28,718 nt of DNA, from positions 1 through 28,718 of IMG/VR virus record IMGVR_UViG_3300044691_000169; one strand, 5' to 3'. Positions 517 to 16,227 of this stretch are shown one piece after another; position 1 is the first letter of the stretch; each line of letters starts with the position of its first letter. Below the pieces are notes generated by a model. That model was given only the letters and a program-made list of their open reading frames with translations. It did not search any database and had not been told where the DNA came from. The DNA comes from a virus. The position numbers and the translations under genes are program-made.

Positions 517-545
517 AGATTACCAACCTACTAGTAAGCTGTCAA
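517..545 (-). promoter_or_regulatory. Palindrome promoter copy 1 (drives 295-510)
   Basis: On the minus strand: -35 TTGACA at 545-540, a 17-base spacer containing TACTAGTA, and -10 TAATCT at 522-517. The ATG at 510 follows after six bases. One outer palindrome base differs from the perfect CTTACTAGTAAG. It is one of eight copies of the same design in the window. Confidence 0.85.
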
Positions 546-553
546 GCGCCAAT

Positions 554-832
554 TTACTGCAGGCCGGCGGCTGCCGGCATCGCGAGCAGCGCCGCGCCGT
601 GCAACTCATTCCAACGCTCTATACGGCGCTCACAGTTGGCGCGGACAGTCTCCCGCCGCTCAACGTCACGGGCGAACCTAGGAGCGATCTCAAGCGCATC
701 CAGAGCGGCTATCTGCTCCCCCATGACCGCCGGCACGTTGCGGCGAGCGAACTCCTCGCGGGTGTGTCCCTGCAAATCCAAGTTGCTCCACTGTGCCGCG
801 TCGATAACCAGCCTGATAGCGTCAATTCGCAT
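554..832 (-). CDS. Hypothetical early protein, 92 aa
   Basis: Second gene of a two-gene unit. Its ATG at 832 follows directly on the TAA of the gene at 833-1057 (TAAATG junction), so it is probably translated by reinitiation or coupling. The protein is rich in Ala, Arg and Glu and looks mainly helical (for example RRNVPAVMGEQIAALDALE and RRIERWNELHGAALLAMP). I see no catalytic or metal-binding motif and recognise no family. It has no promoter of its own and depends on the palindrome promoter at 1064-1092. Confidence 0.65.
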   Translation of the reverse strand: MRIDAIRLVIDAAQWSNLDLQGHTREEFARRNVPAVMGEQIAALDALEIAPRFARDVERRETVRANCERRIERWNELHGAALLAMPAAAGLQ

Positions 833-1057
833 TTATGCAACCTCCAAGAGCGCCGAGACGCCCTTCCAACTCTTGTAATGGCTCTCAACGTCCGCGAGCG
901 TCTCGAAGCGCTTGAGAGAGCCTAGACGACCGCTCCAAGCTCGCGTGCAAGCGTTCTGTGTGCTCATGTACCAGGCGTTCTCACCTTTGCGAAGGGTCAT
1001 GGTGTGGCCGCCCTTGACTAGCTGAAACTCGGTTGCGGATATCGCTTGAATCATCAT
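833..1057 (-). CDS. Small hypothetical early protein, leaderless gene
   Basis: Encodes 74 residues. The sequence (FQLVKGGHTMTLRKGENAW, then KRFETLADVESHYKSW) reads like a small alpha/beta protein that ends in a helix, but I cannot assign a family. The ATG at 1057 begins a tandem ATGATG and lies six bases after the -10 of the promoter at 1064-1092. No Shine-Dalgarno sequence is possible if transcription starts at the usual distance. The gene at 554-832 follows immediately with a TAAATG junction. Confidence 0.75.
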   Translation of the reverse strand: MMIQAISATEFQLVKGGHTMTLRKGENAWYMSTQNACTRAWSGRLGSLKRFETLADVESHYKSWKGVSALLEVA

Positions 1058-1063
1058 GAGTAG

Positions 1064-1092
1064 AGATTACCAACTTACTAGTAAGCTGTCAA
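1064..1092 (-). promoter_or_regulatory. Palindrome promoter copy 2 (drives 833-1057 and 554-832)
   Basis: Minus strand: TTGACA at 1092-1087, a 17-base spacer with the perfect 12-bp palindrome CTTACTAGTAAG, and TAATCT at 1069-1064. The ATG starts at 1057, six bases further on. The sequence matches copy 4 through the ATG. Confidence 0.88.
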
Positions 1093-1095
1093 GCG

Positions 1096-1224
1096 CTAAA
1101 TTAGCGGAGCGACCCGATACACCAGGCCGGCTCCGCACCACACCACATAATCGAAGGCGTCCGCGTGTCGCCAGATGCCGCCGAACTCTACCACGGGCTT
1201 ACCGCAATGCCGGCAAGTAGGCAT
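1096..1224 (-). CDS. Tiny zinc-knuckle-like protein, 42 aa
   Basis: A short gene whose ATG (1224-1222) overlaps the TAA of the preceding gene in a TAATG junction, so translation is probably coupled. It ends with TAG at 1098-1096, four bases before the -35 of the next promoter. The protein begins MPTCRHCGKPVVEFGG, a C-x2-C knuckle, and later has WRHADAFDYVVWC with a third Cys and a His that could complete a metal site. Such minimal treble-clef or zinc-ribbon pieces are common in phage early regions. Function is unknown; the coding call rests on the exact stop/start overlap and the metal-binding pattern. Confidence 0.7.
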   Translation of the reverse strand: MPTCRHCGKPVVEFGGIWRHADAFDYVVWCGAGLVYRVAPLI

Positions 1225-1553
1225 TAGAGGTTCGCAAATCTGGGGACGCTCACCGTGAGCCCGGTTTCGAGAGAGAAGACAGTACGGAGATTGTCGGCGT
1301 ACACATCCTCATGCGTTGCGATCTCAGCGAGCTTGACGCCCCGTAGCTTGCTGAATGTCACGGTGTACGTATCCGCCGGCGTGAGTTCAATCTTCACAAC
1401 GTTGATTCCCCGCTTTGTGAATCCACCACCACCAGGCAGCCGAAACACTAAGTAATTGTCGCCGCCGATGAAGCTCTTTGCGCCGGTCATCATCTTGAAA
1501 CCGCCGCCGCCGAGTTGCTGAAGGATTGTGTTTGCTACTGTCATGTTTGCCAT
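1224..1553 (-). CDS. Hypothetical Gly-rich early protein, leaderless gene
   Basis: The frame is open further upstream to 1712, but the promoter at 1560-1588 lies inside that longer frame and places transcription start at the ATG at 1553. I therefore choose the 109-residue form starting MANMTVANTILQQLGGGG. The protein has two Gly-rich turns (QLGGGGFKMM and LPGGGGFTKRG), then a beta-rich part (INVVKIELTPADTYTVTFSKLRG) and an acidic helix with DVYADNLRTVFSLETGL. It recalls small phage proteins of unknown function in which GGGGF turns alternate with strands, but I cannot name a family. The 42-aa zinc-knuckle gene follows with a TAATG overlap. Confidence 0.75.
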   Translation of the reverse strand: MANMTVANTILQQLGGGGFKMMTGAKSFIGGDNYLVFRLPGGGGFTKRGINVVKIELTPADTYTVTFSKLRGVKLAEIATHEDVYADNLRTVFSLETGLTVSVPRFANL

Positions 1554-1559
1554 GAGTAG

Positions 1560-1588
1560 AGAGTACCAACCTACTAGTAAGCTGTCAA
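1560..1588 (-). promoter_or_regulatory. Palindrome promoter copy 3 (drives 1224-1553)
   Basis: Minus strand: TTGACA at 1588-1583, a 17-base spacer with TACTAGTA, and a variant -10, TACTCT, at 1565-1560. The ATG at 1553 is again six bases downstream. This copy fixes the start of the downstream gene well inside a longer open frame. Confidence 0.82.
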
Positions 1589-1596
1589 GCGCTAAT

Positions 1597-1875
1597 TTAC
1601 GCAACCCACGATTGCCGGTGAATGGGCTCCCACTCCCATTGACCAGGCCGGTAAGTACGCTGAGAGATCTTGCCATCACGGAGCGTAAAGCTCTGTAAGC
1701 GACCATCGGCACGTAGGACCAACGCGCCTCCCTTACGTCGCACCCAGGCTCTCACAGCAGCCTTCCAATCCGCCGCGCCGGTATGGTGAGCGAGCGTGCG
1801 CCACTCGGGGACGGTGAGGAGATTCGTGGGCATGGCGTTACGGTCGAAGTTGGTAGTGATTGCGTTCGTCATCAT
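1597..1875 (-). CDS. Hypothetical early protein, 92 aa, leaderless gene
   Basis: The ATG at 1875 (tandem ATGATG) is six bases after the -10 of the promoter at 1882-1910. The protein starts MMTNAITTNFDRNAMPTNLL and has a basic middle (WKAAVRAWVRRKGGALVLRADG) and an aromatic C-terminus (RPGQWEWEPIHRQSW). The basic, tryptophan-rich character would suit nucleic-acid binding, but no known fold is evident. The gene ends eight bases before the -35 of the next promoter downstream. Confidence 0.75.
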   Translation of the reverse strand: MMTNAITTNFDRNAMPTNLLTVPEWRTLAHHTGAADWKAAVRAWVRRKGGALVLRADGRLQSFTLRDGKISQRTYRPGQWEWEPIHRQSWVA

Positions 1876-1881
1876 GAGTAG

Positions 1882-1910
1882 AGATTACCAACTTACTAGT
1901 AAGCTGTCAA
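1882..1910 (-). promoter_or_regulatory. Palindrome promoter copy 4 (drives 1597-1875)
   Basis: Minus strand: TTGACA at 1910-1905, a 17-base spacer with the perfect palindrome CTTACTAGTAAG, and TAATCT at 1887-1882. The ATG at 1875 follows after six bases. The terminator at 1914-1954 lies directly upstream and insulates it from the preceding unit. Confidence 0.88.
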
Positions 1911-1913
1911 GCG

Positions 1914-1954
1914 CTAAATAGAATAGGGGAGCCGTGAGTGTACCGGCTCCCCTA
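1914..1954 (-). terminator. Rho-independent terminator after 1961-2890
   Basis: An 11-bp inverted repeat (stem arms 1924-1934 and 1944-1954, core AGGGGAGCCG / CGGCTCCCCT) has a 9-base loop. Read on the minus strand it is followed by TATTCTATTT. It sits just past the stop codon at 1961, as expected for a transcript end. Confidence 0.7.
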
Positions 1955-1960
1955 GGGTAG

Positions 1961-2890
1961 CTAGGCCGCCGCGAATATGGGACGGCTCGCGAAGCCGAAC
2001 TTAGGATCATCGGGGGACGGCTTGATAGTCGCTTTGAAGGTGATAGCAGCGCCGCGCTCGGCTGGTGCGCCGCTCGGGAGAGTAGACCAGACCATAAAAC
2101 CCTCAGCGGCCTTGACGAGCATCTTAGTGGTGAGTCCCCACTGGCTCTCCCGCTCCTCGACTTTTACGATGGTGCCGGTGATAGTGACGCGCCCAGAGGG
2201 GCAGGGGGCGGCGGCTTCCTTCTCGGCGGCTCGCTCAGCCTGAGTCACTGCATAGGCGTCATGCTTCGCGATGAGGGATTTAGCGAACACGGTCATTTTC
2301 TCGGAGAGCGTCCCGTACTGCTCAGTCGTGCGAATCATTTCCGCGAGCTTGTCCACGTTCGCCCAACGGCGGTTACGCTCGCGAGCCTCAGCCCAGGCAG
2401 CATCCTCGCGCTCGCGGCTGATGAAGTCATCCGGAGTCAACGCGAGCCCAACGATTGCGGGGAGTGCGTTACGCTCTGCAATCAACTCATACGCACGCGC
2501 TAAGCCTGCAGCGGTCCAAGCGGCAATTCCAGCACGCTTCCCCTTCGCTATGTGGTTCTCGTGTCGCGCCGCTTGCTTGAATGCGTCAAAATCCCCGTAA
2601 GCCATATCCAACTTTTCCGCACAGTCGCCGCCGGTCCTGATATAGCTGTTGGTGAGCGAGTGGTAGAAGAGAACGGTATAGATGCAATCAGCGCCGCAGA
2701 TGTGGCAATTGCCGCCGTGCTCGTGGCGGCTGTACGTCCCGCCGGTCTGTTTCATGTGAGCTTGGATGCGGATGCGCTGAGCGAGCGCGTACTGTGCATC
2801 CCCGATCCCTTCAATCTTGACGTGCTCGAAAGCTACAAACTCATACTCTGAGGGATTGATAACTGAGGGGCGGTGGGTATCGTTACGCAT
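1961..2890 (-). CDS. Treble-clef zinc and OB-fold-like phage protein, 309 aa
   Basis: The N-terminal third holds a metal-binding module, HEHGGNCHICGADCIY, followed after about 20 residues by RTGGDCAEKL, giving a C-x2-C plus a distal Cys and nearby His residues. The central part is helical and rich in Ala, Arg and Glu. The last 80 residues (RVTITGTIVKVEERESQWG and ATIKPSPDDPKFGFASRP) alternate strands and turns as an OB-fold would. Similar proteins occur widely in phages without a proven role. Single-stranded DNA or RNA binding is a reasonable inference. The ATG at 2890 has GGAGG nine bases upstream, which itself lies within the short leaderless reading frame at 2883-2906. Transcription comes from 2913-2941 and ends at 1914-1954. 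Confidence 0.8.
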   Translation of the reverse strand: MRNDTHRPSVINPSEYEFVAFEHVKIEGIGDAQYALAQRIRIQAHMKQTGGTYSRHEHGGNCHICGADCIYTVLFYHSLTNSYIRTGGDCAEKLDMAYGDFDAFKQAARHENHIAKGKRAGIAAWTAAGLARAYELIAERNALPAIVGLALTPDDFISREREDAAWAEARERNRRWANVDKLAEMIRTTEQYGTLSEKMTVFAKSLIAKHDAYAVTQAERAAEKEAAAPCPSGRVTITGTIVKVEERESQWGLTTKMLVKAAEGFMVWSTLPSGAPAERGAAITFKATIKPSPDDPKFGFASRPIFAAA

Positions 2891-2906
2891 TGGGTGTTGC
2901 CTCCAT
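2883..2906 (-). CDS. Seven-codon leader ORF overlapping the next start
   Basis: The ATG at 2906 sits six bases after the -10, at the same place where the leaderless genes start. It opens a frame of seven residues (MEATPNA) whose TAA overlaps the ATG at 2890 of the 309-aa gene. The same bases supply GGAGG as a Shine-Dalgarno sequence for that gene. Promoter copy 7 carries the same leader, but there it reads in frame into the gene. Whether the peptide is made is unproven. Confidence 0.4.
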   Translation of the reverse strand: MEATPNA

Positions 2907-2912
2907 GAGTAG

Positions 2913-2941
2913 AGATTACCAACTTACTAGTAAGCTGTCAA
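2913..2941 (-). promoter_or_regulatory. Palindrome promoter copy 5 (drives 1961-2890)
   Basis: Minus strand: TTGACA at 2941-2936, a 17-base spacer with the perfect CTTACTAGTAAG, and TAATCT at 2918-2913. The TGA stop of the upstream gene (2940-2938) lies within the -35 hexamer, so that gene's terminal codon and this promoter share bases. Confidence 0.88.
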
Positions 2942-3783
2942 GCGGATAATCTCTGAGCTTCCACCATCGCCTGATTGATTTGGCTCGCTAATACCTGCTC
3001 TACCGTCGCCTTCATCCTCTCCGGAGAGATCTCCGCGATGACCTGACGAGCCGCCACAATCGCTTTCTCTGCGGTATCCCCGCTCCCCGTAGACTTCCCG
3101 GTAATCGTCTCAGTGACGGTAAAGGAAATCTTCCCATCGTCCTCAGCGCTTCCCCATCGCACCACCACAAACTTGAGCGGAGCCATTACTCCTAGCTCGA
3201 TTGGTGTACCCATCTTCAGCACCTTCGGATTTTCCACCGGCTTTGTGATGGTATGGCCGAGAGATTTGCAATTCATCCCCATTGGCCCACGTCCGCACGT
3301 TACACACTTCGCGGGACTATCGGGCATGGCGCACAGTACCTCCACCATCCCATCTCCATCCTCGTCATACTTCGCCCGTCGCATCGCACGCTTGGCGTCA
3401 GCGCTGAGCGCTCCGAGCATCACTTTCTTTTGAAGCCGCTCGCGCTCTTTCTCGCTCCACGCGCTCAGCGTCTTTACAGCTTCGGCGCGGTTGATAGCGT
3501 TCATCGTGCAACTAGTCTTTATCTTCCCAACGTGGCCGGCGATGCGAAGCCTGCGAGTCTCCACCGTGCGCTCAGCAATCAAGTCAACCGGACCTTCTAC
3601 TTGATATCCCTGGGGACGTTTCTCGTCGCAATACCACTCGCCGCCGGTAACGATCACTTCCACGCGATCTATAGTGACTCCCTTGCTCCAAGTCCGCAAC
3701 CGCTTACCGTCTACGCAAACGGGGGCTTTGCCTTCGACTGGTACCGCTACAACCGGAGCCTTACTCTTCACCAATGACTTCAT
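2938..3783 (-). CDS. Hypothetical early protein with a Cys cluster, 281 aa
   Basis: The frame opens earlier (3894), but the ATG at 3783 has a strong Shine-Dalgarno sequence, GGGAGGAG, at the right distance. That gives 281 residues starting MKSLVKSKAPVVAVPVEGKA. Around two thirds in there is AKCVTCGRGPMGMNCKSLGHT, a C-x2-C plus Cys and His arrangement that could bind zinc. A charged helical segment (KTLSAWSEKERERLQKKV) precedes it. The C-terminus has a strand-rich part (FVVVRWGSAEDDGKISFTVTE) and a helical end. No family is recognised. It starts inside the 3' end of the 65-aa gene, and its TGA lies within the next promoter. Confidence 0.7.
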   Translation of the reverse strand: MKSLVKSKAPVVAVPVEGKAPVCVDGKRLRTWSKGVTIDRVEVIVTGGEWYCDEKRPQGYQVEGPVDLIAERTVETRRLRIAGHVGKIKTSCTMNAINRAEAVKTLSAWSEKERERLQKKVMLGALSADAKRAMRRAKYDEDGDGMVEVLCAMPDSPAKCVTCGRGPMGMNCKSLGHTITKPVENPKVLKMGTPIELGVMAPLKFVVVRWGSAEDDGKISFTVTETITGKSTGSGDTAEKAIVAARQVIAEISPERMKATVEQVLASQINQAMVEAQRLSA

Positions 3784-3958
3784 AATTACTCCTCCCGCAA
3801 TTCGGGGTATGCGTTGAATGCCCAGGTTGCCGCGTCTTTGGCGAGCTCGCGGGGCGCTCAGATGCGATCTCGTATTTCGCGTACACAACAGCAAGGCACG
3901 CGTGGTTTACGCAAGTCGCTTTGTATGCCTTCATCTTCTGTTCGTATGTCTTTGCCAT
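3761..3958 (-). CDS. Small hypothetical early protein, 65 aa, leaderless gene
   Basis: The ATG at 3958 is six bases after the -10 of the promoter at 3965-3993. The protein starts MAKTYEQKMKAYKATCVNHA and is basic. Two Cys residues and a His lie near the start (TCVNHACLAVVYAKYE), and the rest is a low-complexity basic tail that overlaps the start of the next gene by 23 bases. No function can be assigned. The tail may simply be tolerated read-through sequence that couples translation to the 281-aa gene. Confidence 0.65.
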   Translation of the reverse strand: MAKTYEQKMKAYKATCVNHACLAVVYAKYEIASERPASSPKTRQPGHSTHTPNCGRSNYEVIGEE

Positions 3959-3964
3959 GAGTAG

Positions 3965-3993
3965 AGATTACCAACCTACTAGTAAGCTGTCAA
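3965..3993 (-). promoter_or_regulatory. Palindrome promoter copy 6 (drives 3761-3958 and 2938-3783)
   Basis: Minus strand: TTGACA at 3993-3988, a 17-base spacer with TACTAGTA, and TAATCT at 3970-3965. The ATG at 3958 follows after six bases. The preceding operon ends with TAG at 3999-3997, only three bases before the -35. Confidence 0.87.
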
Positions 3994-3996
3994 GCG

Positions 3997-4092
3997 CTAA
4001 ATCGCAGCCAAGATCCAAACGCCAGCCCACAGCAACACCAGCACGCCGGCTGCTGAGATAAAGAACACGGATGAATTGTGGGAGATCCTCAT
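3997..4092 (-). CDS. Tiny single-pass membrane protein, 31 aa
   Basis: The ATG at 4092 overlaps the TGA of the gene at 4089-4289 in an ATGA junction. The product starts MRISHNSSVFFIS and continues with an uninterrupted hydrophobic stretch (AAGVLVLLWAGVWILAAI) that runs to the C-terminus, so it is a single membrane-spanning peptide with a short N-terminal tail. It closes the AlpA operon. A membrane role such as holin, antiholin or exclusion is possible but cannot be decided from sequence. Confidence 0.6.
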   Translation of the reverse strand: MRISHNSSVFFISAAGVLVLLWAGVWILAAI

Positions 4093-4289
4093 AGCCCCAC
4101 CGCCGTAGCGCATCCCGCACGCTGCCACACGGCGCGGAGATAATCGCGGATCGCCGGCGTACTACTCTTGTGGCATTCCCAACGCCGCGCAGCGCTCACA
4201 TAGATCCAAAGTGGCCAGTGTGAGCGAGGCTTCATAGAGCTTTTGAAGTCGCCGTGATCCCAACTCGATAGAAGTATTCTCTGTAACAT
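4089..4289 (-). CDS. Hypothetical early protein, 66 aa
   Basis: The ATG at 4289 follows directly on the TAG of the 44-aa gene (TAGATG), and its TGA overlaps the next ATG. Both junctions fit coupled translation within one operon. The protein is basic and tryptophan-rich (SHWPLWIYVSAARRWECHK, then YLRAVWQRAGC), with a helical C-terminus. No known motif is visible. The coding call depends mainly on the packing of the operon, since the sequence alone is not distinctive. Confidence 0.55.
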   Translation of the reverse strand: MLQRILLSSWDHGDFKSSMKPRSHWPLWIYVSAARRWECHKSSTPAIRDYLRAVWQRAGCATAVGL

Positions 4290-4424
4290 CTAGCACCACC
4301 ATCCATGAAAAGTTATCGTAGAGCCGTCATCCCATCGCATCGTGAACGTCGGCGCACAAGCACAAAATAGCCAATAGCAATACAGCGCGAAGACGTAGAG
4401 TTGCGCTCGCCAGTGGAGCCTCAT
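4290..4424 (-). CDS. Tiny membrane or secreted protein, 44 aa
   Basis: The ATG at 4424 overlaps the TAA of the gene at 4424-4636 in a TAATG junction. The product begins MRLHWRAQLYVFALYCYWLF: a short basic n-region, then a hydrophobic core up to CACAP. A polar tail with TMRWDDGSTITFHGWWC follows. It could be a signal-anchored or exported peptide, and the A-C pairs near the end of the core might allow lipidation. Tail pieces resembling MRWDDGS and TTLWECDGN in neighbouring genes suggest small exported phage proteins. Function is unknown. Confidence 0.55.
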   Translation of the reverse strand: MRLHWRAQLYVFALYCYWLFCACAPTFTMRWDDGSTITFHGWWC

Positions 4425-4636
4425 TACCGCCTCACCTGAAAATTACCGTCACACTCCCATAGCGTTGTAGGGTCAGAAAAGGTATCAGCGCGAACAATGC
4501 GGCAATGGTGTTGTATCGAGAATTGCACCCATTCCCGCTCACTCTCAGCACGCCGGCGGTCGTCCTCATTGATCTCGTGAGCGAATAAAACAAAAGCTCC
4601 GATGACCAGTAACAAAATTGCAGCGAGTGTCTTCAT
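4424..4636 (-). CDS. Small exported or membrane protein, 70 aa
   Basis: Begins MKTLAAILLLVIGAFVLFAH, a hydrophobic N-terminal segment that is either a signal peptide or a membrane anchor. A charged stretch (EINEDDRRRAESEREW) and a small disulfide-capable domain (VQFSIQHHCRIV ... TTLWECDGNFQVRR) follow. Short phage proteins with HHC...WxCDDG endings are common in prophage early regions and remain uncharacterised. The ATG at 4636 overlaps the upstream TGA (ATGA) and its TAA overlaps the downstream ATG (TAATG), so it is an internal gene of the AlpA operon. Confidence 0.75.
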   Translation of the reverse strand: MKTLAAILLLVIGAFVLFAHEINEDDRRRAESEREWVQFSIQHHCRIVRADTFSDPTTLWECDGNFQVRR

Positions 4637-4941
4637 TTACTCAACTCCGCGTTACGCATGGATGCCGCTCTGAGTTGCTCCCCGGCCTTCGAGTACGAAG
4701 AGGGCATAATGCGATGGCCGATAAATTTGCAGGTTTCGCAGACGTGGAGCTTGTACAAGTGGCGGCGCGGACCCGAGCAGCGATGAGGCGTTGCAGTTGG
4801 CGGCCCCCAAAACTTCATGTTGCGCTTTCTCTCAAGGTCACAGTTGCCCCAGGTAGCTTCACAGTCGCCGTTATGGTGGTGATGTTTCGGCGCGGCCTTG
4901 ATTCTCTCGGCTTCGGCTCTTTCAAACTCCGGATCTCTCAC
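4633..4941 (-). CDS. Hypothetical His/Cys-rich early protein, 102 aa
   Basis: Starts with GTG at 4941, overlapping the TGA of the AlpA-like gene (GTGA junction). The N-terminus is helical and acidic (MRDPEFERAEAERIKAAPKH). It is followed by HHHHNGDCEATWGNC and later LHVCETCKFIGHRIMP, giving several Cys and His residues that look like two metal-binding knuckles. No family is recognised, but a zinc-dependent DNA- or protein-binding role is plausible. Transcription comes from the promoter at 5188-5215. Confidence 0.7.
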   Translation of the reverse strand: MRDPEFERAEAERIKAAPKHHHHNGDCEATWGNCDLERKRNMKFWGPPTATPHRCSGPRRHLYKLHVCETCKFIGHRIMPSSYSKAGEQLRAASMRNAELSK

Positions 4942-5153
4942 GCCGTCACCGTCCCCATCTGCTCCACCAGAGCCCGTATGCTCTCAACGCTCCACATACG
5001 AATACGCGGACCCTGTAGCACGCCGGCGGGATATTTCCCCGAGCCAACCCCACGCCACCAAGTTGCACGGCTGACGGGGATTACTGGGGGAATCCCTCGC
5101 TTACGGTCCCCGATAATCTGGGGAAGTCTCATATAACCAATTTCAGGCAGCAT
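4938..5153 (-). CDS. AlpA-type DNA-binding regulator
   Basis: The product matches the AlpA/excisionase-like winged-helix pattern: YMRLPQIIG, then IPVSRATWWRGVGSGKYPAG, then GPRIRMWSVESIRALVEQM. In this family the VSRxTWWxGVxSGxxP segment is the recognition helix and wing. Family members regulate prophage genes or assist excision. The first ATG (5153) gives 71 residues; an internal ATG at 5132 would start MRLPQIIG. It is the first gene of a tightly overlapping six-gene operon (5153 down to 3997). A hairpin sits between its promoter and its start. It could be the excisionase for the integrase, or an early regulator; it is not an obvious CI-type repressor. Confidence 0.85.
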   Translation of the reverse strand: MLPEIGYMRLPQIIGDRKRGIPPVIPVSRATWWRGVGSGKYPAGVLQGPRIRMWSVESIRALVEQMGTVTA

Positions 5154-5160
5154 ATAAAAG

Positions 5161-5188
5161 GCTCACTCCAATAAAGTCTAGAGTGAGC
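5161..5188. promoter_or_regulatory. Inverted repeat in the AlpA leader: operator or attenuator
   Basis: Perfect 8-bp arms GCTCACTC (5161-5168) and GAGTGAGC (5181-5188) are separated by 12 bases. Read on the minus strand the second arm is followed by CTTTTATATG, so the structure runs into the AlpA start. The GGAG that could serve as ribosome-binding site is within and beside the arm, and the outer arm overlaps the -10. The repeat could be an operator, an attenuator or a structure hiding the ribosome-binding site. Confidence 0.55.
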
Positions 5189-5215
5189 TTATATCGTCTC
5201 AAGTAATCCCGTCAA
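5188..5215 (-). promoter_or_regulatory. AlpA operon promoter
   Basis: Minus strand: TTGACG at 5215-5210, a 16-base spacer and TATAAG at 5193-5188. It does not carry the TACTAGTA palindrome found in the other early promoters, so this operon is probably controlled separately. Confidence 0.6.
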
Positions 5216-5241
5216 GCCTCAAAATAATTATGCGGATGGGA

Positions 5242-5397
5242 TTACGGAGTCGATACCCATTGTGTGTCTAAATGCATTTGAAAACCTTTGATATCAAACG
5301 ACTCGCACAAATTCAAAAACATCCGTGAATCGGAAGTGGTCCGAAAATGGATAAAGATTCGTCCGTCCGTTTGCTGCTTTATTTCCACAATCCTCAC
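5242..5397 (-). CDS. Small hypothetical early protein, 51 aa, GTG start
   Basis: A GTG at 5397 overlaps the TGA of the preceding gene in a GTGA junction, and the frame runs to TAA at 5244-5242. The product (MRIVEIKQQTDGRIFIHFRT, then SRMFLNLCESFDIKG) looks like two strands followed by a helix and strand, a coherent small fold. The coding call rests on the exact overlap and on the well-formed amphipathic pattern. No family is recognised. It is the second gene from promoter copy 7. Confidence 0.6.
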   Translation of the reverse strand: MRIVEIKQQTDGRIFIHFRTTSDSRMFLNLCESFDIKGFQMHLDTQWVSTP

Positions 5398-5633
5398 GCA
5401 ACCCCCTTGCAGCACGGCATTACGCGGAAGAGTTCTGAGTTTGAATACTCAGACTCAAAGTCATTATTTATCTGTTTAGCTTCGCTCGCAACGGCCAACT
5501 CTACCGTATCCCCCTCTATCGTCCAATCTAGTGAGTGACGTTTGCGGGTAAGATCTCGACAACCTACCGCATGCACTTCCATTGGGTAATCGGTGCGGAT
5601 AACTTGGAATTTGCTCATTGGTGTTGCCTCCAT
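5394..5633 (-). CDS. Small hypothetical early protein, two possible starts
   Basis: From the ATG at 5633 the product has 79 residues (MEATPMSKFQVIRTDYPMEV). From the ATG at 5618 it has 74 (MSKFQVIRTDYPMEV). The first ATG is six bases after the -10, as in the leaderless genes. The second is preceded by GGAGG eight bases upstream and is the better ribosome-binding start. The same leader is used at 2883-2906, where the frame closes instead. The body (TIEGDTVELAVASEAKQINNDFESEYSNSELFRVMPCC) is acidic, with a CC near the end. No family is recognised. The 51-aa gene follows through a GTGA overlap. Confidence 0.65.
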   Translation of the reverse strand: MEATPMSKFQVIRTDYPMEVHAVGCRDLTRKRHSLDWTIEGDTVELAVASEAKQINNDFESEYSNSELFRVMPCCKGVA

Positions 5634-5639
5634 GTAGAG

Positions 5640-5668
5640 AGATTACCAACCTACTAGTAATCTGTCAA
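5640..5668 (-). promoter_or_regulatory. Palindrome promoter copy 7 (drives 5394-5633 and 5242-5397)
   Basis: Minus strand: TTGACA at 5668-5663, a 17-base spacer with TACTAGTA, and TAATCT at 5645-5640. An ATG follows after six bases. A plus-strand TTGACA begins only 18 bases beyond its -35, making a divergent promoter pair. Confidence 0.85.
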
Positions 5669-5685
5669 GCACTAAATAACGCAAT

Positions 5686-5802: not shown

Positions 5803-5848
5803 AGCGCGGGGACCAGAGCGAGCGTATAGCAGCGCGGGGACCAGAGCG
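5803..5848. repeat. 18-bp direct repeat in the non-coding gap
   Basis: AGCGCGGGGACCAGAGCG occurs at 5803-5820 and again at 5831-5848, with a 28-base period. A shorter related piece (TAGCGCGAAGG) precedes the first copy. It lies within the candidate small RNA; it could also be a protein-binding site. Confidence 0.7.
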
Positions 5849-5865
5849 GATCTTCCCGCGAAAAC

Positions 5866-5922
5866 TCAAAGAGCGTAGGGACTCAGCCGCTACCGGCCAT
5901 CTCCCTACGCTCTCCTAATTTG
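5866..5922. terminator. Probable bidirectional terminator
   Basis: A 12-bp perfect inverted repeat (AGAGCGTAGGGA at 5870-5881, TCCCTACGCTCT at 5902-5913) has a 20-base loop. The plus strand continues TCCTAATTTG. The minus strand, after the integrase gene, continues TTTGAGTTTTC. It could end both the candidate small RNA and the integrase transcript. Confidence 0.6.
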
Positions 5923-6016
5923 TGGGCTACGCGCAACTTATCCATTACGCTGCACTGATATTCGTGAATCCTAGGAAGTAACGGTATCGGGGTCGGTTGG
6001 ATACCGAGGTAGCCCT

Positions 6017-7261
6017 CTACCCCGCTTTGAAAGCCAGCAATTTCCCGCCGCGCTGAGTCTGCTCAAGGAAATCCCCCCAGGCTTGCATCATCTTCGCTCG
6101 CGGCTCAAGGTAGAGAGCGTGATTGTAAGCCGCGCTGACGGCGTTACGGGGCGCGTGCGCGAGTTGTAGCTCGATATGGTCATGCGGCCATCCCTGCTCG
6201 TGTAGGAGCGTGCTGGCGAGCCCTCTAAACCCGTGGCCGGTCATCACGCCGCCGTATCCTATACGTTTGAGCGCGAAAAGTATCGTGTTGTTACTCATCG
6301 TGCGGCGATGGTCATTCTCACCAGGAAAGAGCAACTCCCCACCGCCGGTCACTGAGCGGAGTAATTCCAGCACTTCGAGCGCTTGAGTAGAGAGAGGTAC
6401 GATATGCGGCGTCTTCATCTTCATCCGCTCAGCCGGTATATTCCAGCGAGCCATAGGCGCAATACCGAGCGCTCTGTCTAAAGGGTCATTAGCGAGATCA
6501 AACTCAGACCAACGCGCCCCTATCAATTCGCTGGTACGCACAAAGGTGAGCGCCATCAGTTTCATTGCGAGCCGAGTAATCACCTTCCCCCGATAGACTT
6601 CAATCGCTCTCAGCAAGGCCGGTAGCGCCGCCGCCTCCACTCGCGCAAGGTTCCGGCTCCGCGTCGGCTTGAGAACGTCCCCAGGCTTGATATCGGCGCA
6701 AGGATTCCGCTTGCAGTAACCGTGGGCAACTCCATACCTGAAAATCTGTCCGGTCGTCTCCAGCGCTCGCCGTGCGAGATCTCCGACACCGCGAGCCTCG
6801 ATAGCCTTCACCATCCGGACCAACTCGGGGGCAATTACCTCATCGATCGGTCGGGCTCCGATATGGGGGTATACGTTCGCCTCCAGCCGCCTCCGCGTGC
6901 TGTCTACGTGCTGCTCGCTCTTATCCACTTTCCAATGCTCATGCCACAAGAGAGCCACGGCACGGAAGCTGCTCACGTCCCCCAGGACCGCCGCGAGCTT
7001 GGCGGCCTTGCGCTGCTCCATAGGGTCAGTACCCCCGGCGAGCAGCTTCCGCGCCGCGCCGTGCCGCTCCCGAGCGTCCACCAGGCTCACATCCGGATAG
7101 CCTCCGAAGCTCATCAGTTTCTCAGCGCCTTGAAAGCGGTACTTCCAGCGCCAGAGCTTTCCGCCTGCAGGTGTGACGAGCAGGAACAGGCCGCGCCCAT
7201 CGGTCATGCGATAGGCGAGCGGCTTCACTTTGGCTTTGCGGATTTCGGTGTCACTTAGCAT
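6017..7261 (-). CDS. int: Tyrosine integrase, P4-like
   Basis: Site-specific recombinase that would integrate the phage at a tRNA gene. The ATG at 7261 has GAGGAG seven bases upstream and gives 414 residues starting MLSDTEIRKAKVKPLAYRMT; the frame opens earlier at 7339 but that start lies inside the HNH gene. Residues 1-90 are the DUF4102-type arm-binding domain. The catalytic set is visible: Arg242 (FVRTSELIGARW), Lys283 region (MKMKTPHIVPLS), His343-x-x-Arg346 (TGHGFRGLAST), His369 (LAHAP) and Tyr379 (AAYNHALYLEPR). All key residues are present, so it should be active. The attP lies about 640 bases upstream. P4-type integrases commonly use tRNA 3' ends, which agrees with the site found. Confidence 0.95.
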   Translation of the reverse strand: MLSDTEIRKAKVKPLAYRMTDGRGLFLLVTPAGGKLWRWKYRFQGAEKLMSFGGYPDVSLVDARERHGAARKLLAGGTDPMEQRKAAKLAAVLGDVSSFRAVALLWHEHWKVDKSEQHVDSTRRRLEANVYPHIGARPIDEVIAPELVRMVKAIEARGVGDLARRALETTGQIFRYGVAHGYCKRNPCADIKPGDVLKPTRSRNLARVEAAALPALLRAIEVYRGKVITRLAMKLMALTFVRTSELIGARWSEFDLANDPLDRALGIAPMARWNIPAERMKMKTPHIVPLSTQALEVLELLRSVTGGGELLFPGENDHRRTMSNNTILFALKRIGYGGVMTGHGFRGLASTLLHEQGWPHDHIELQLAHAPRNAVSAAYNHALYLEPRAKMMQAWGDFLEQTQRGGKLLAFKAG

Positions 7262-7659
7262 TGGGAACTCCTCAGATAACGAATTGCCGATTTCAGAGCG
7301 GAAACGCTGTCTCTGAATGCACCTAACGCGAGGTTGCAACCATGACAGAGAATTCCCCTAACTTTTCCCGTCAGGTGACAATGATCGGTCGCCCATCCGT
7401 ACTTACTACCCGAGTCGGGGCGACTGCAGATACCACAGCAATGACCTTGCTCCGAAAACAATAGGTTCCATTGCTCTTTGGTCAGGCCATATTTCTTTAC
7501 GATCTTGCGTTCGCGTCTTAGCTGTTTTTGCGCGAGAGTGTAGATGCGCTCTTTTTCTACCTTAGTTCGCGGCACGCGCTTGTATCGGAGAGCGCGAGCC
7601 TTCCGCTCTTGCAATGGCAATTTCATCCATTCTGACAAAGGATCTACAATAGGAGTCAT
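7255..7659 (-). CDS. HNH endonuclease, recombination endonuclease VII family
   Basis: Encodes 134 residues with a basic helical N-terminus (RKARALRYKRVPRTKVEKER) and a C-terminal endonuclease VII-like core. The core has CCGICSRPDSG, then WATDHCHLTGKVRGILCHGCNLALG. The two C-x2-C pairs bind zinc, and DHCH supplies the catalytic His and metal ligands. T4 endonuclease VII resolves branched DNA, but small free-standing members like this one often behave as homing-type nucleases. The gene overlaps the integrase start by seven bases, an odd place for a cargo gene and a hint of insertion. A second paralogue lies at 26534-26974. Confidence 0.85.
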   Translation of the reverse strand: MTPIVDPLSEWMKLPLQERKARALRYKRVPRTKVEKERIYTLAQKQLRRERKIVKKYGLTKEQWNLLFSEQGHCCGICSRPDSGSKYGWATDHCHLTGKVRGILCHGCNLALGAFRDSVSALKSAIRYLRSSQC

Positions 7660-7817: not shown

Positions 7818-7821
7818 AATA

Positions 7822-8139: not shown

Positions 8140-11112
8140 CTAAAAGCTATTCCAGACGCATCCGCCGGTTGACGAAGGCAACGCCACATCCCTAAATCTC
8201 ATGGTGCTATTCGAGGGTATCGTCAGAGCGCTAGAGGAGCGATCAACGCCGTTGATTGGTTCCGCGCTGATGAGGTTTTTGATACCAACAGTGAAGGCCG
8301 ATTGCGAGTTGTTGACCGTGTAAACGGCTCCGGTTTGACCGAGGCAGTTGGGCAGCGTGAGCGTCTGGTTTGCCGTGGGTTGAGACAACAGATAAGCATC
8401 CCCCGCGAGCATAGAGTACGTTGCCGCCGTAACGATGGTCGGGTTAGCTGCTGTTGAGCCAAAATAGTAATTGAGAGCATTTGACATCGCAGCCGCCATC
8501 AAAGGTTCGCCGCTATCCGTAGGGTGGAGCCCCCCGTTGAAGTAGGTAGTATTCGCCGCCGCGCCGTCCGCGCCGAGTAGAGGATTAGCAGCCATATCGG
8601 TTATGCCATCGGCCCCGCTCGCCACAATCCCCGTGCGAATCAAATTGTTATAAGTGTTTTTCTGAGCATCCGCTCCCGTGCCGCTGAAATCTAGCAGAGT
8701 TGACACAAACACTTTACATCCGCCGCGTTTTAGAGCTTGCACTTCGCCCTGCAAGTTAGTATAAACTTGCGCGGGTGTCACCCCTCCAATCAAGTCATTC
8801 ACCCCCGCAAGCACGTTGACCACTCCACCAGCACCTTGTGATGTTTGGCACAGTTGCGCTACGCGGTTTGGTTCGGAGGCTGCAAACTCTTGCAATTTTT
8901 CGGACGGAATGCCCCAATTGCTGACTGTGTATGTGGGTTGGTTGACCAGGCTAAGAGTGCTGCAATAAGGGCCAACGGTGGCTAGGGTATCACCCGCTGT
9001 AATTGAATCTCCAACGCAATGAAGTTGCGGAGTTCCTAACAGCGGAGAGAAAGGGGAAGTTGTAACACCGCGATTGGCTACGTCAGCCCTAAATACTTGA
9101 GTGATCGCAGCCGCATCAGCCGCCGAGTACTGTGTACTGTGTACACGCATCCTATAGAACACGGCTTGCGGCGAACTGGCAACCCAAGGGCCAACCCCAC
9201 TCGCACCGATAAACAGATTGCCAGATGTTTGCACACCCGCAGTTGAACCTTGCGCCAAGTATGCCACCTCCGCCCCATCCACATAAACGTGATCGAGGTT
9301 GCCGCTGCCGGTGCCAAGTACCCAAACAATTACATGAAAGCCTGAAAATCCACTCTGCGCTTGAGTTGACACAGACCCATTCCATATCATCGGCTGTCCG
9401 AAACTAGTCCCCGTGGCTACCCCAGTGACGAAATTGATCCCCGTGCTTCCCGTGCTGCTGGTAATCCAAGACGGAAACCCGTTGATGTTGTACTTCGGCG
9501 CACCGAGGCACGGACCCGGACCCGCCCAATTTATTCCACAAGGGACTGTCGTTATAGGCGACCAATAGGCTGCAATTACAAACGTCTTGCCGGCGTTTAC
9601 CGCCGAAGGCAAAGCGATACCCTGGGCAGTTGCAGTTGTGAATCCAACCCCACCCTGCACCCAAGCTGGGGCGTTAGCGCCAGAACTAAAGGTGCCGTTG
9701 TTTCCGTTGCCGCTGGTGTCTACGAGTATGGTTCCGGCTCCAGAGTTGAACTGATAATCAGCAATGACGCCGGTTGCTAAATTACCAATCAAATTGGGCG
9801 TTTGGTAAGGAACAAAACCGAGAGCGCCGGTAATCTGGGAAGAGAGGAGAGCCTTGAATGAAGGCGCGGCAGCCGCGCCGCTGTATGGACCTTGATAGAC
9901 CGTGTTCGCGGCTGCTGTACCGGAAAGCGCGGTTGCTGTCGCTATATTGCCGGTAGGTAATACGTAATCGGTACCGGGGGTTGCTGCAAGCACACCCCCC
10001 GCATTGTTGCCTTTCAAAAGGTTATTAGTTGTCGGTGTCGTACTACCACCGCTAAAAGTGTAAGCGTTGCCTGAATGCGACACGCCGGGTCCACCGAAGG
10101 TAAATGCCCCTATCAATGTGTCAATGCTAGAGACACCGCTCGCGCCGCCCCCAGGAAGCTCCGATAATGGCACTAGTCCCGCCGCGTCGAGCCTAGCCAC
10201 TCCGTTTACCGCTCCCTTTTGCGTTGACGGAATAGCGGCGTTCGCAATCACACTCACGGGGGCTATTTGAGAGTTGACGTAAGTGGCAGATGCCGCTTGG
10301 TTTCCCGTCGGAGTGCCGGATAGGGAGATTGGTCCGGTCATCACGCCGCCGGCCAAAGGGAGATCCGCCGTCGCGCTATCGGCAACGGTCGCATGATCGG
10401 CGTTAGTGGCTATCGCTGCCCTTCCTGTCGTGTTCTGATTCAGCGGGGGAAAGTTGGTCATATTCGCCGCGCTGATTGCCGGCGCAAGCTGATACGTCGG
10501 TGATCCCGGCCCCCCCGATGCGGGACCGCCGAGCACCGAATTTTGCGGCGCATTGGCGCGAGTTGCCGCCACTGCTCCCGTAGAATTTGCATTCGATAAG
10601 AGAACTCCGTCCCCCGAGAATGAACTCACCCCCGCGCCGGGACCGCCCCCGGCTCTCGCAATTTGACCGTTAGGGCTCGCGGTTAGTACCAGGCTTACAC
10701 TCGTTGCCGTAAACGTCCCCGATGTAACAAAGCGAATGTGAGTCAGTCCAGCAAGATTGACTTGATAGAGCCCGTTCGCGGTCGCAGTAACGGTGCTGCC
10801 AGTGGTGCCGGGAGTCGCTACGGGGCTAATCGGCAGCGGGTAGTAAGTCGCCCCGTTGTCGCCGCTCCCTTGCACTGCGAAGGTCACAGTAGTTAGTGAG
10901 GTTCCGGTAACAGTGATCGTCCCCGAAGCGAACGAACTCCCCACCGTCGAAGGCACTACCAGGCTATTGAGTTGAATCACAGTGCCGGTCTTACCAGTGG
11001 CAGTAAATATCTGAGCGGGAAAAACTGAGTTGCTGTAGGGACTGGCGAGGTTCTGAGCTTGACTCGCAACCCCCAACAGTAATAGCAGTGCCAGTAATAC
11101 TTTTTGTCTCAT
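8140..11112 (-). CDS. Secreted fibre-like protein with LamG-like and SGNH hydrolase domains
   Basis: A 990-residue product. The N-terminus (MRQKVLLALLLLLGVASQAQ) is a clear Sec signal peptide. Residues about 20-430 are low-complexity, fibre-like sequence with phage tail-fibre phrases such as LDAAGLVPLSELPGG and TGALGFVPYQTPN. Residues about 450-670 resemble a LamG/concanavalin sandwich (YQFNSGAGTILVDTSGNGNNG). From about residue 698 there is an SGNH/GDSL hydrolase core: GDSITAGD at about 700, LAGVNDLIGG at about 767 and GGLHPTDSG at about 858. In the last block the usual Asp three residues before His is Gly, so activity is uncertain. The C-terminal 100 residues resemble a small beta-structured fibre tip. 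The start has GGAGG ten bases upstream. A receptor or polysaccharide-binding or -cleaving role is likely. Confidence 0.75.
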   Translation of the reverse strand: MRQKVLLALLLLLGVASQAQNLASPYSNSVFPAQIFTATGKTGTVIQLNSLVVPSTVGSSFASGTITVTGTSLTTVTFAVQGSGDNGATYYPLPISPVATPGTTGSTVTATANGLYQVNLAGLTHIRFVTSGTFTATSVSLVLTASPNGQIARAGGGPGAGVSSFSGDGVLLSNANSTGAVAATRANAPQNSVLGGPASGGPGSPTYQLAPAISAANMTNFPPLNQNTTGRAAIATNADHATVADSATADLPLAGGVMTGPISLSGTPTGNQAASATYVNSQIAPVSVIANAAIPSTQKGAVNGVARLDAAGLVPLSELPGGGASGVSSIDTLIGAFTFGGPGVSHSGNAYTFSGGSTTPTTNNLLKGNNAGGVLAATPGTDYVLPTGNIATATALSGTAAANTVYQGPYSGAAAAPSFKALLSSQITGALGFVPYQTPNLIGNLATGVIADYQFNSGAGTILVDTSGNGNNGTFSSGANAPAWVQGGVGFTTATAQGIALPSAVNAGKTFVIAAYWSPITTVPCGINWAGPGPCLGAPKYNINGFPSWITSSTGSTGINFVTGVATGTSFGQPMIWNGSVSTQAQSGFSGFHVIVWVLGTGSGNLDHVYVDGAEVAYLAQGSTAGVQTSGNLFIGASGVGPWVASSPQAVFYRMRVHSTQYSAADAAAITQVFRADVANRGVTTSPFSPLLGTPQLHCVGDSITAGDTLATVGPYCSTLSLVNQPTYTVSNWGIPSEKLQEFAASEPNRVAQLCQTSQGAGGVVNVLAGVNDLIGGVTPAQVYTNLQGEVQALKRGGCKVFVSTLLDFSGTGADAQKNTYNNLIRTGIVASGADGITDMAANPLLGADGAAANTTYFNGGLHPTDSGEPLMAAAMSNALNYYFGSTAANPTIVTAATYSMLAGDAYLLSQPTANQTLTLPNCLGQTGAVYTVNNSQSAFTVGIKNLISAEPINGVDRSSSALTIPSNSTMRFRDVALPSSTGGCVWNSF

Positions 11113-14874: not shown

Positions 14875-15644
14875 CGCCCAAAGTTGCACGAGCGGTTCAC
14901 GCCAATCGCGGCCAAGCTATTCACTACCGCCGGCGGATGCAAACGCTCGTTGATGAGATGCATGAGAGCGTTTTGTACTGGCTGACGGCCACGTATAACC
15001 AAGCCCCGCCGGTACTCGCTCAGGACGCGAGCCCCGTAAAGGTCATACGTAAGCAATTGCGCGAGCTTGCTCAGCGTTGGCGCAAGCGTTTCGATGATTC
15101 CGCGCCGAAGATCGCGGAGGCTTATCTCAAGGGCTCTTTCAAGCATACCGATTCCGCGATGCGTCAGGCTCTCACAGATGCCGGTTGGACTGTCAAATTC
15201 GAGATGACGCCGGCGGTACGCGAAGCATTTGAAGCGTCACTCGCGGAGAATGTTGGGCTCATCCGCTCTATCCCTGAGCAGTATTTACAGCAGGTAGAGG
15301 GAGCGGTTATGCGCTCGTATGCTGTTGGGCGAGATCTCGAAACGATGGTGCGCGATATCAAACGCATATACCCGAAGGCAGCCAACCGCGCCGCGCTCAT
15401 CGCTCGGGACCAGAGCAACAAGGCAAACGCGGTAGTAACGCGAGCCCGTCAAACTGAATTAGGGATAGTGGAAGCGATATGGATGCATTCTCACGCAGGG
15501 AAGGTTCCGCGCCCTGACCACGTTGCAGCCAACGGCAAGAAGTACAAAGTTGCCGAAGGCTGCCTTATCTCGGGGGAGTATATCTTTCCTGGTGAGCTTA
15601 TCAATTGCCGCTGTACGTCGCGTTCGGTGCTGCCTGGGTTTTAG
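14871..15644 (+). CDS. Head morphogenesis protein, Mu gpF-like
   Basis: A minor head protein of the SPP1 gp7/Mu gpF group that associates with the portal during capsid assembly. Encodes 257 residues; the start overlaps the upstream TGA (ATGA). The N-terminal half is helical (RYHYRRRM-type and IRKQLRELAQRWRKRFDDSA). The diagnostic C-terminal part is RTALIARDQ-like (NRAALIARDQSNKANAVVTR), then WMHSHAGKVPRPDHVAANGK and FPGELINCRCTSRSVLPGF. The HxxxxxPRxxH ... NCRC arrangement is the family signature. Its TAG is three bases from the end of the convergent minus-strand cassette. Confidence 0.92.
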   Translation: MTPKVARAVHANRGQAIHYRRRMQTLVDEMHESVLYWLTATYNQAPPVLAQDASPVKVIRKQLRELAQRWRKRFDDSAPKIAEAYLKGSFKHTDSAMRQALTDAGWTVKFEMTPAVREAFEASLAENVGLIRSIPEQYLQQVEGAVMRSYAVGRDLETMVRDIKRIYPKAANRAALIARDQSNKANAVVTRARQTELGIVEAIWMHSHAGKVPRPDHVAANGKKYKVAEGCLISGEYIFPGELINCRCTSRSVLPGF

Positions 15645-15832
15645 TGGTGACAATAATCAGCGGGTTGTATCTGCTCGTCTTCCGGAACATCTATATAAAC
15701 TCCACAAAATTTACATTGATGGGGAGTATCTAAAATATGTTGGATCTGATCGAGTTGGTCTTGCATGTACGTTGCGGTGTGAAACACAGGAGCGGTTACC
15801 AAATTCAAAATACGCATTGCTTGTGCTGACAT
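15641..15832 (-). CDS. Small zinc-binding-like protein, 63 aa (minus-strand cassette gene 3)
   Basis: The start at 15832 follows the TAA of the 31-aa gene by one base, with GGGG seven bases upstream. The product has a hydrophobic N-terminus (MSAQAMRILNLVTAPVFHTA), a helix (MQDQLDQIQHILDT) and a C-terminal Cys/His cluster: CKFCGVYIDVP, then ADYCHH at the end. The C-x2-C and C-x-H-type pairs could bind one zinc ion. The final four bases overlap the end of the convergent head gene. Function is unknown. It is transcribed against the late operon, from promoter copy 8. Confidence 0.6.
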   Translation of the reverse strand: MSAQAMRILNLVTAPVFHTATYMQDQLDQIQHILDTPHQCKFCGVYIDVPEDEQIQPADYCHH

Positions 15833-15833
15833 T

Positions 15834-15929
15834 TTATCCCCGCCTGTTGTGGTTGTGACCTTCGCACGCGCCGATGATGCAGATGAGAGCGAGCACCATT
15901 ATTGTTACCAGTCCCCAAGGGTTATGCAT
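15834..15929 (-). CDS. Tiny lipoprotein-like or membrane peptide, 31 aa (cassette gene 2)
   Basis: The product starts MHNPWGLVTIMVLALICIIG and continues ACEGHNHNRRG. The hydrophobic core followed by IIGAC fits a lipoprotein signal with lipobox I-G-A-C, which would leave a mature peptide of only ten residues. Alternatively it is a simple membrane peptide. The ribosome-binding site is weak (GGAT about ten bases upstream). The TAA is one base before the next ATG. Together with the 39-aa membrane protein it could form a small envelope-acting pair. Spanin, exclusion and lysis-timing roles are all possible and undecided. Confidence 0.5.
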   Translation of the reverse strand: MHNPWGLVTIMVLALICIIGACEGHNHNRRG

Positions 15930-16040
15930 AGTAGGTTCTATCCAATTCAAATTGACCGTTGTTCGCAAACTTGATGGTTGAGTGGGGACGGTGAAGCGTC
16001 CGCGCTACGGCGAGCGCTTGTTGGTGAGCCTCGATCCGAC

Positions 16041-16160
16041 TTAGAAGGCCCAAGGTTGGCCCCCGCGAAAGTTGACTCCGATAGCGCAAGCCATGATGAA
16101 AAGACCAGTGATTACGGCGGCGACGACTACCATTTCCCGATTGTTTTTGATGAAGGTCAT
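16041..16160 (-). CDS. Small membrane protein, 39 aa (cassette gene 1)
   Basis: The ATG at 16160 has AGGAG nine bases upstream, and the frame ends with TAA at 16043-16041. The product starts MTFIKNNREMVVVAAVITGL, continues FIMACAIGV, and ends with the short polar tail NFRGGQPWAF. It is a single membrane-spanning segment with a charged N-terminal tail. It is the first gene downstream of promoter copy 8, with a leader of about 32 bases that has a normal ribosome-binding site, unlike the leaderless early genes. A holin- or exclusion-type role is possible but not shown. Confidence 0.6.
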   Translation of the reverse strand: MTFIKNNREMVVVAAVITGLFIMACAIGVNFRGGQPWAF

Positions 16161-16198
16161 TGTCTTATTCTCCTGTTTGTTTCTCGGCTACAAGAGAG

Positions 16199-16227
16199 AC
16201 ATTAGCAGGGTACTAGTAGCCTGTCAA
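16199..16227 (-). promoter_or_regulatory. Palindrome promoter copy 8, inside the late operon
   Basis: Minus strand: TTGACA at 16227-16222, a 17-base spacer with TACTAGTA at the same offset as in the other seven copies, and TAATGT at 16204-16199. The spacer flanks and downstream bases have diverged completely from the early copies, while the -35, palindrome core and -10 are kept. This pattern indicates selection on those elements. It drives the three minus-strand genes and lies back to back with the DUF2213 gene. Confidence 0.8.

Follow-up and report, generated by a model that had tools for sequence, protein, structure and literature searches.

Phage promoters with a common palindrome in the spacer and a different palindrome in a sister lineage

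A bacterial virus was found to carry at least eight near-identical promoters in front of small genes, each holding the same palindrome between the -35 and -10 elements, and relatives use the same layout with a different palindrome, which points to one switch protein shutting many genes at once. The DNA analyzed was a stretch of 28,718 nucleotides of a viral record (IMGVR_UViG_3300044691_000169; hereafter the window). The window is a fragment of a Bcep781-like myovirus, with homologous terminase, portal, MuF-like, DUF2213 and capsid genes in the same order; its TerL is 43% identical to that of Bcep781, its capsid protein is 61% identical to that of Aeromonas phage 56, and it is collinear with a near-complete relative of 47,971 b (hereafter G002).

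The original prediction held that eight 29-base sites, all on the minus strand, share TTGACA, a 17-base spacer with a palindrome starting three bases after the -35, and a -10 of TAATCT or a close variant, and this observation was confirmed. An exact search for TTGACA-N3-TACTAGTA returned eight occurrences, all on the minus strand. TACTAGTA occurs exactly eight times in the window, against 0.14 expected in shuffled sequences (none of 100 shuffles reached eight). A genome-wide count showing the motif equally common away from gene starts had been named beforehand as an outcome that would count against the proposal; in the window, all eight copies lie in these promoters. TACTAGTA follows 8 of the 17 minus-strand TTGACA and 0 of the 6 plus-strand ones. 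The -10 is TAATCT in six sites, TACTCT in one (1560) and TAATGT in one (16199). The sites and associated genes are as follows, promoter activity being inferred from sequence.

517-545, minus strand: class I promoter with spacer palindrome (TACTAGTA at 529-536), driving the ORF 295-510.
1064-1092, minus strand: class I promoter (palindrome 1076-1083, CTTACTAGTAAG), driving 833-1057 and 554-832.
1560-1588, minus strand: class I promoter with -10 TACTCT (palindrome 1572-1579), driving the phrog_9437 gene 1224-1553.
1882-1910, minus strand: class I promoter (palindrome 1894-1901), driving 1597-1875, whose homolog in G002 (5829-6077, 67% identity) lies downstream of site 5499 there.
2913-2941, minus strand: class I promoter (palindrome 2925-2932) with an ATGGAGG leader containing a Shine-Dalgarno, driving 1961-2890.
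3965-3993, minus strand: class I promoter (palindrome 3977-3984), driving 3761-3958 and 2938-3783; the homolog of 2938-3783 in G002 (8695-9423, 45%) lies directly behind site 8660 there.
5640-5668, minus strand: class I promoter (palindrome 5652-5659) with an ATGGAGG leader, driving 5394-5618.
16199-16227, minus strand: eighth class I promoter (palindrome 16211-16218), divergent from the DUF2213 gene and with a conventional leader; genome G003 has an orthologous site, and genomes G444 and G418 have sites at the equivalent place.
16044-16160, minus strand: 38-aa small membrane-type protein (MTFIKNNREMVVAAVITG...), driven by the eighth site, with an ortholog in G003.
4938-5153, minus strand: AlpA-like small protein, the only candidate DNA-binding protein recognised near the array, not driven by a class I promoter.
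6017-7339, minus strand: tyrosine integrase (Arm-DNA-bind_3), without a homolog in the relatives surveyed.

The seven array copies are near-identical from about 12 nt before the -35 to the ATG, with a mean pairwise identity of 1.0 in the -35, 0.95 in the spacer, 0.95 in the -10 and 1.0 at the ATG, falling to 0.27-0.37 outside. This region had been proposed to include bases with no known role, part of which can now be named. The sequence TTGG-TAATCT holds the TG of an extended -10, which is also the mirror image of the CA of TTGACA. The conserved element is larger than first described, an 18-bp dyad CA-NN-TTACTAGTAA-NN-TG running from the end of the -35 to the TG of the extended -10. The last conserved bases are the ATG itself, which lies exactly 6 nt after the -10 in all seven array sites, so that the start codon coincides with the expected +1; five of these sites look leaderless and two carry a Shine-Dalgarno. 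The eighth site, thought to retain only the -35, palindrome and -10, also keeps the outer CA..TG arms, with GG/CC changes on both sides (CAGGcTACTAGTAcCCTG).

Conservation of the site in related prophages had been put forward as a criterion in support of the proposal; related phages were examined next. In G002 all four exact copies of TACTAGTA and one copy of TAACTAGTA lie in promoters; the genome of the window itself could not be counted in full, the record being a linear fragment. Across 18 sites of six phages the spacer palindrome is about as conserved as the -35, whereas spacer positions 2, 13, 14 and 17 vary (majority-base frequency 0.96 inside against 0.71 outside, P = 0.008). At the orthologous eighth site, the window and G003 differ at 0 of 8 palindrome positions and at 5 of 7 flank positions (Fisher P = 0.007). 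Sequences within a lineage are related, so these P values are rough, and the near-identity of the seven array copies may partly reflect copying of a promoter cassette, so that they are not eight independent observations. The CA and TG arms stay even in genomes G419 and G418, where the -10 is poor. The palindrome is a conserved element separate from the promoter, kept in relatives, in part at orthologous genes, while neighbouring spacer bases change.

A sister lineage has the same plan with an unrelated palindrome, GATAAATWATTTATC, at the same place and on both strands: 20 of 20 copies in five genomes lie in promoter spacers. Genes of phrog_9437 carry the TACTAGTA promoter in the window and the GATAAATWATTTATC promoter (class I-A) in genomes G426 and G427. 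When the last 11 kb of RcSpartan, a named phage with a phrog_9437 gene, were scanned, no spacer palindrome of the kinds found here was seen. In the sister lineage, a gene encoding a 55-residue HTH protein lies downstream of a class I-A promoter: 24 of 27 loci with this gene have the operator, nearly all 0.4-1.7 kb upstream on the same strand, against a null of 1 of 135. This protein is the likely reader of GATAAATWATTTATC; in G426 it is encoded at about 28229-28387 on the minus strand, and one promoter of that genome lies at 1343. Whether the regulon includes autoregulation, with the reader encoded behind one of its own promoters, is left undecided by this linkage, no reader having been identified in the lineage of the window.

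A search for a helix-turn-helix repressor had likewise been proposed, and no convincing reader was found in the window, as the original prediction had stated. The HTH candidates in G002 are AlpA-like, HTH_8, HTH_38, TetR-like and ParB-like proteins. The AlpA-like protein is conserved beside the array in the window and in G002 (66% identical to G002 4578-4778, which hits Phage_AlpA below the curated cut-off). However, ten of the twelve loci found are other phages without the motif nearby, and in one locus (L280) it sits beside an integrase; it was kept only as a weak candidate, and its structural model was too poor to use. The TetR-like phrog_8723 protein was considered as a reader of TACTAGTA, but its own gene is preceded by another operator class, TTGACR-N4-YGTCAA, in G423 (a genome that has the sites), G426, JD001 and Scuro, so it more likely reads that one. 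Of the ParB-like proteins, the group A type was not found in G423, and the group B type occurs only in G001, G002 and G419, too few relatives to judge. The 92-aa protein encoded by 1597-1875, itself class I driven, gave an AlphaFold2 model with a pLDDT of 71 and no significant fold match. A homology between 1961-2890 and G002 5107-5502 was tested and not accepted, and a search for RNA families returned none.

The interpretation offered in the original prediction, a dimer in the spacer blocking RNA polymerase at every unit at once, on a plan recalling stoperators, was partly supported. Conservation of the palindrome while flanks change, and its replacement by another in the sister lineage, are what an operator in the spacer predicts, and each site heads its own small gene or operon, as had been claimed. 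By contrast, the prophage or stoperator frame was not supported: the sites are symmetric, few, and all inside promoters, and G002 has no homolog of the integrase of the window and no recognisable CI, yet has five sites.

We consider it likely that each site is a strong sigma-70-type promoter (consensus -35, 17-bp spacer, TG-extended -10) whose spacer is filled by an operator, the 18-bp dyad CANNTTACTAGTAANNTG. In this view, a dimeric repressor bound there would cover the -35/-10 gap and exclude RNA polymerase, so that one protein would silence at least eight small transcription units together. Since most relatives lack an integrase, the simplest use would be to cap or shut off a set of early small-gene promoters during infection by negative feedback; keeping a prophage silent is possible only for integrase carriers such as the window. 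The plan belongs to the phage family, but the operator and probably its reader are lineage-specific. The sites, their positions and conservation, the second operator and the linkage of the HTH gene rest directly on the sequences, whereas promoter activity, binding, repression, timing and the identity of the reader are inferences, no transcript, reporter or binding data having been examined. In line with the model, in Granulosicoccus the geometry TTGACA-N3-TACTAGTA-N6-TANNNT-N6-ATG heads a full-length TetR-family gene.

Other explanations were judged unlikely, although an activator or a host-encoded reader is not excluded. The best surviving one is that a bacterial regulator recognises the palindrome and the phage borrows it. 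The same promoter geometry is found before the TetR-family gene in Granulosicoccus and in an unrelated phage (G006), in which no homolog of the window was found. However, TTGACA-NN-TTACTAGTAA-NN-TG was absent, with up to one mismatch allowed, from 297 Acidobacteriota genomes, although the host phylum is unproven; the capsid was not found in 396 Acidobacteriota genomes, and no host was identified. Moreover, in the sister lineage the likely reader is phage-encoded. A lysogeny repressor system of the stoperator or immunity type, with a CI-like protein holding all units silent in a prophage, is slightly less likely. In its favour, the window carries a tyrosine integrase and an AlpA-like gene, and phrog_66 (excisionase and regulator) is a weak hit of the G002 homolog. 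Against it, no homolog of this integrase was found in the surveyed relatives that have spacer-palindrome promoters. No CI/Cro-type repressor gene was recognised beside the sites in the window or in near-complete G002, but an orphan family could be missed, so the comparison with lambda-type immunity operators does not settle either way. Copying of a promoter cassette with the palindrome as a passenger without a reader is also doubtful: identity of the seven copies starts about 12 nt before the -35 and stops exactly at the ATG, and the genes behind them are unrelated by the searches made, but the palindrome is kept in diverged phages while flanks change, and an unrelated palindrome holds the same place in the sister lineage. 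Least likely is a MerR-type activator working from the spacer, since such regulators do bind dyads in promoter spacers (a BmrR study is PMC7722741) but the promoters they activate have 19-20 bp spacers, whereas those found here have the optimal 17 bp with a consensus -35 and extended -10, so no untwisting is needed.

Comparison with known systems showed partial resemblances. In cluster A mycobacteriophages (L5, Bxb1), one repressor reads many near-identical sites dispersed over the genome and oriented with transcription, and the motif differs between related subclusters (PMC6550527). Stoperators, however, are 13 bp, asymmetric, 20-30 per genome and mostly outside promoters, where they block elongation, whereas here the site is a symmetric 18-bp dyad with core TACTAGTA, present at least 8 times (fragment) or about 5 times (G002), and all 8 window copies and all exact G002 copies are in promoter spacers; no immunity repressor was recognised, and binding was not assayed. 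The KorA/KorB regulon of IncP-1 plasmids (RK2) has a small autoregulated repressor acting on palindromes inside several dispersed core promoters (related papers are PMC2680271 and PMC11790492), and the phage sites share with this working plan the presence of one palindrome in several promoters and not elsewhere; it differs in being a plasmid system with other operator sequences and a cooperative pair of repressors, and no homology was shown. PLtetO-1-type and TetR-family autorepressed promoters place a palindromic operator in the spacer of a strong 17-bp promoter, as does the Granulosicoccus gene, but each is a single engineered or autoregulatory promoter and not a dispersed phage set. The 21-nt direct repeats of phages TLS and T1 are repeated intergenic elements in a virulent phage that their authors compared with stoperators (PMC11447400), but were not described there as palindromes within promoter spacers.

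A broader reading is possible, though somewhat less likely than not: that a family of mostly integrase-less myoviruses controls dispersed small-gene promoters through operators built into the spacers, and exchanges the whole operator/reader pair between lineages (the TACTAGTA dyad versus GATAAATWATTTATC with an unrelated reader) with homologous genes kept under control, while a further family-wide operator, TTGACR-N4-YGTCAA, whose first half is the -35 itself, is probably read by the TetR-like phrog_8723 protein.

Combined, these findings provide a concrete, testable reader and operator pair, the 55-aa HTH protein and GATAAATWATTTATC, and a naturally replicated set of apparently leaderless promoters. 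The regulon would show that phages without an integrase or recognisable immunity repressor run a genome-wide multi-promoter repressor circuit, and that such a circuit can be rewired wholesale, with a new palindrome and a new reader but homologous genes and the same place in the promoter.

All eight promoter sites of the original prediction were found at exactly the positions assigned to them, and the observation held. The palindrome TACTAGTA occurs eight times in the window, against 0.14 expected in shuffled sequence, which is far above chance. An equal frequency of the motif away from gene starts had been put forward in advance as grounds for rejection; in the window, every copy lies three bases after a TTGACA. 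Of the 17 TTGACA sequences on the minus strand eight are followed by the palindrome, as opposed to none of the six on the plus strand.

To define the composition of the site, the seven copies of the array (window 517-5668) were aligned. This gave a conserved block that begins about 12 nt before the -35 and ends at the ATG, with background identity on both sides. The spacer is 17 bp long, the -10 is TAATCT or close to it, and a TG one base before the -10 makes it an extended -10. The CA that ends TTGACA and this TG are mirror images, so that the dyad is CANNTTACTAGTAANNTG. In all seven array copies ATG follows the -10 by exactly 6 nt, which places the A of ATG at the expected +1. Five of these look leaderless, a property inferred from spacing since no transcript data exist, whereas in the copies at 2913 and 5640 the ATG is followed by GAGG and a second ATG, so that these probably use a Shine-Dalgarno. 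The array is an apparent natural set of leaderless mRNAs. By contrast, the eighth copy has a normal leader. Other phages (sequences L010, L015, L023 and L054) carry TTGACA-AAG/AAC-TACTAGTA, also with ATG 6 nt after the -10, in front of a predicted primase/helicase-like gene.

The record is a linear virus fragment of 28,718 bases, whose host was not identified. Terminase, portal, Mu F-like, DUF2213 and capsid genes place it with Bcep781-like and Aeromonas phage 56-like myoviruses. It is collinear with the relative G002, a genome of 47,971 b that has both ends inside one fibre gene and is therefore near complete. Repeated GGGGGTAT/ATACCCCC motifs at 158-220 and 7735-8000 of the window flank the segment containing the integrase and the array on both sides, and may be integrase arm sites.

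Conservation in related prophages had been named beforehand as evidence that would count in favor of the proposal, and relatives of the window were examined for the site. G002 and the near-identical genome G001 have five such promoters each. A third relative, G003, has the orthologous eighth site before the same small gene; here the palindrome is unchanged, while most other spacer bases outside the -35 and -10 differ. Two further relatives, G444 and G418, have a site at the equivalent place, beside DUF2213 and before a small gene. G418 and the relative G419 have variants (CACATTACTAGCAATGTG, CACGTTACAAGTAATGTG) that keep the outer arms although their -10 is poor. Per-column information over 18 sites showed TTACTAGTA and TG to be about as conserved as the -35, with variable bases between, although the sites within a genome are not independent and P values ignore relatedness. 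Two array genes of the window have homologs behind such promoters in G002, namely 1597-1875 (67% identity) and 2938-3783 (45%). In addition, G002 (L135) encodes at 9475-10107 an Imm-5-like protein with long SAADSAAYSA repeats, located behind a promoter of this class and with a homolog in G419.

A search for promoters that share spacers within one genome found 3-7 members in the window, G002, G419, the genomes G423, G426, G435, G422 and G439, and phages JD001 and Scuro, a pair in phage XapPhi1, and about none in shuffled genomes. The pair in XapPhi1 (Xanthomonas phage, L278), at 24105 and 40532, shares almost exactly a spacer that is not palindromic, WCTGCCCTGTGGATATG. In G422, G423, G426, G428, G435, G439 and G427, which represent a second lineage, the shared spacer is the palindrome GATAAATWATTTATC or a close variant, placed two bases after the -35 and abutting the -10, on both strands. 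All 20 copies with at most one mismatch in five of these genomes sit in promoters. The phrog_9437 gene is behind a TACTAGTA promoter in the window and behind a GATAAATWATTTATC promoter in G426 and G427. The place in the promoter is kept while the palindrome changes, which is the strongest argument that the spacer holds an operator.

A candidate reader was then sought for the second palindrome. A 55-residue protein with a weak HTH_3 match, below the curated cut-off, is found in all five of the more complete genomes with this palindrome. A scan of viral contigs with this protein returned 27 loci, 24 of which have the operator with a -35, on the same strand and in nearly all cases 0.4-1.7 kb upstream, against 1 of 135 shuffled loci. 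This is evidence of linkage, not of binding. No relative of the protein was found in named phages.

By contrast, when a protein able to read TACTAGTA was looked for, as had also been suggested at the outset, none was convincingly recognizable in the window. G002 encodes AlpA-like, Fis-type HTH_8, HTH_38, TetR-like and ParB-like proteins. The TetR-like protein (phrog_8723) is more likely the reader of a third element, TTGACR-N4-YGTCAA, which was found before its own gene in G423, G426, JD001 and Scuro and is repeated in these genomes. The first half of this operator-like element is the -35 itself, and it is repeated in the sequences L248 (Klebsiella phage JD001, about a dozen places), L249 (Acinetobacter phage Scuro), L234-L236 and L238-L240, being present upstream of the phrog_8723 gene in four of them. 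Bacterial Granulosicoccus genomes carry the TACTAGTA promoter geometry before a TetR-family gene, which shows that the arrangement suits an autorepressor but does not identify the phage protein. In the window, a hairpin (GCTCACTC...GAGTGAGC) followed by CTTTTAT lies at 5161-5188, between a presumed promoter and the start of the AlpA-like gene, and is a possible attenuator or binding site.

The original prediction had interpreted the sites as bound by a protein dimer that blocks RNA polymerase at every unit, on a plan recalling stoperators, and this interpretation was partly supported. The arrangement works like dispersed-operator repressor regulons, such as that of KorA on IncP plasmids. It resembles stoperators in number and dispersion, but fails the stoperator criteria of asymmetry and of location outside promoters. 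No paper found in the literature searches, which covered an open-access collection and are weak evidence of novelty, describes spacer palindromes in this phage group.

A consensus -35, optimal spacing and an extended -10 predict high activity without help, so a protein in the spacer should repress. One dimer per promoter would then set or shut off all units at once. Whereas the sites, their conservation, the second palindrome and the linkage of the HTH gene were observed, this mode of action is inferred. Although for the window both remain possible, feedback control during infection is more likely than lysogenic silencing, since the relatives checked lack a homolog of the window's integrase and no CI was recognized in G002.
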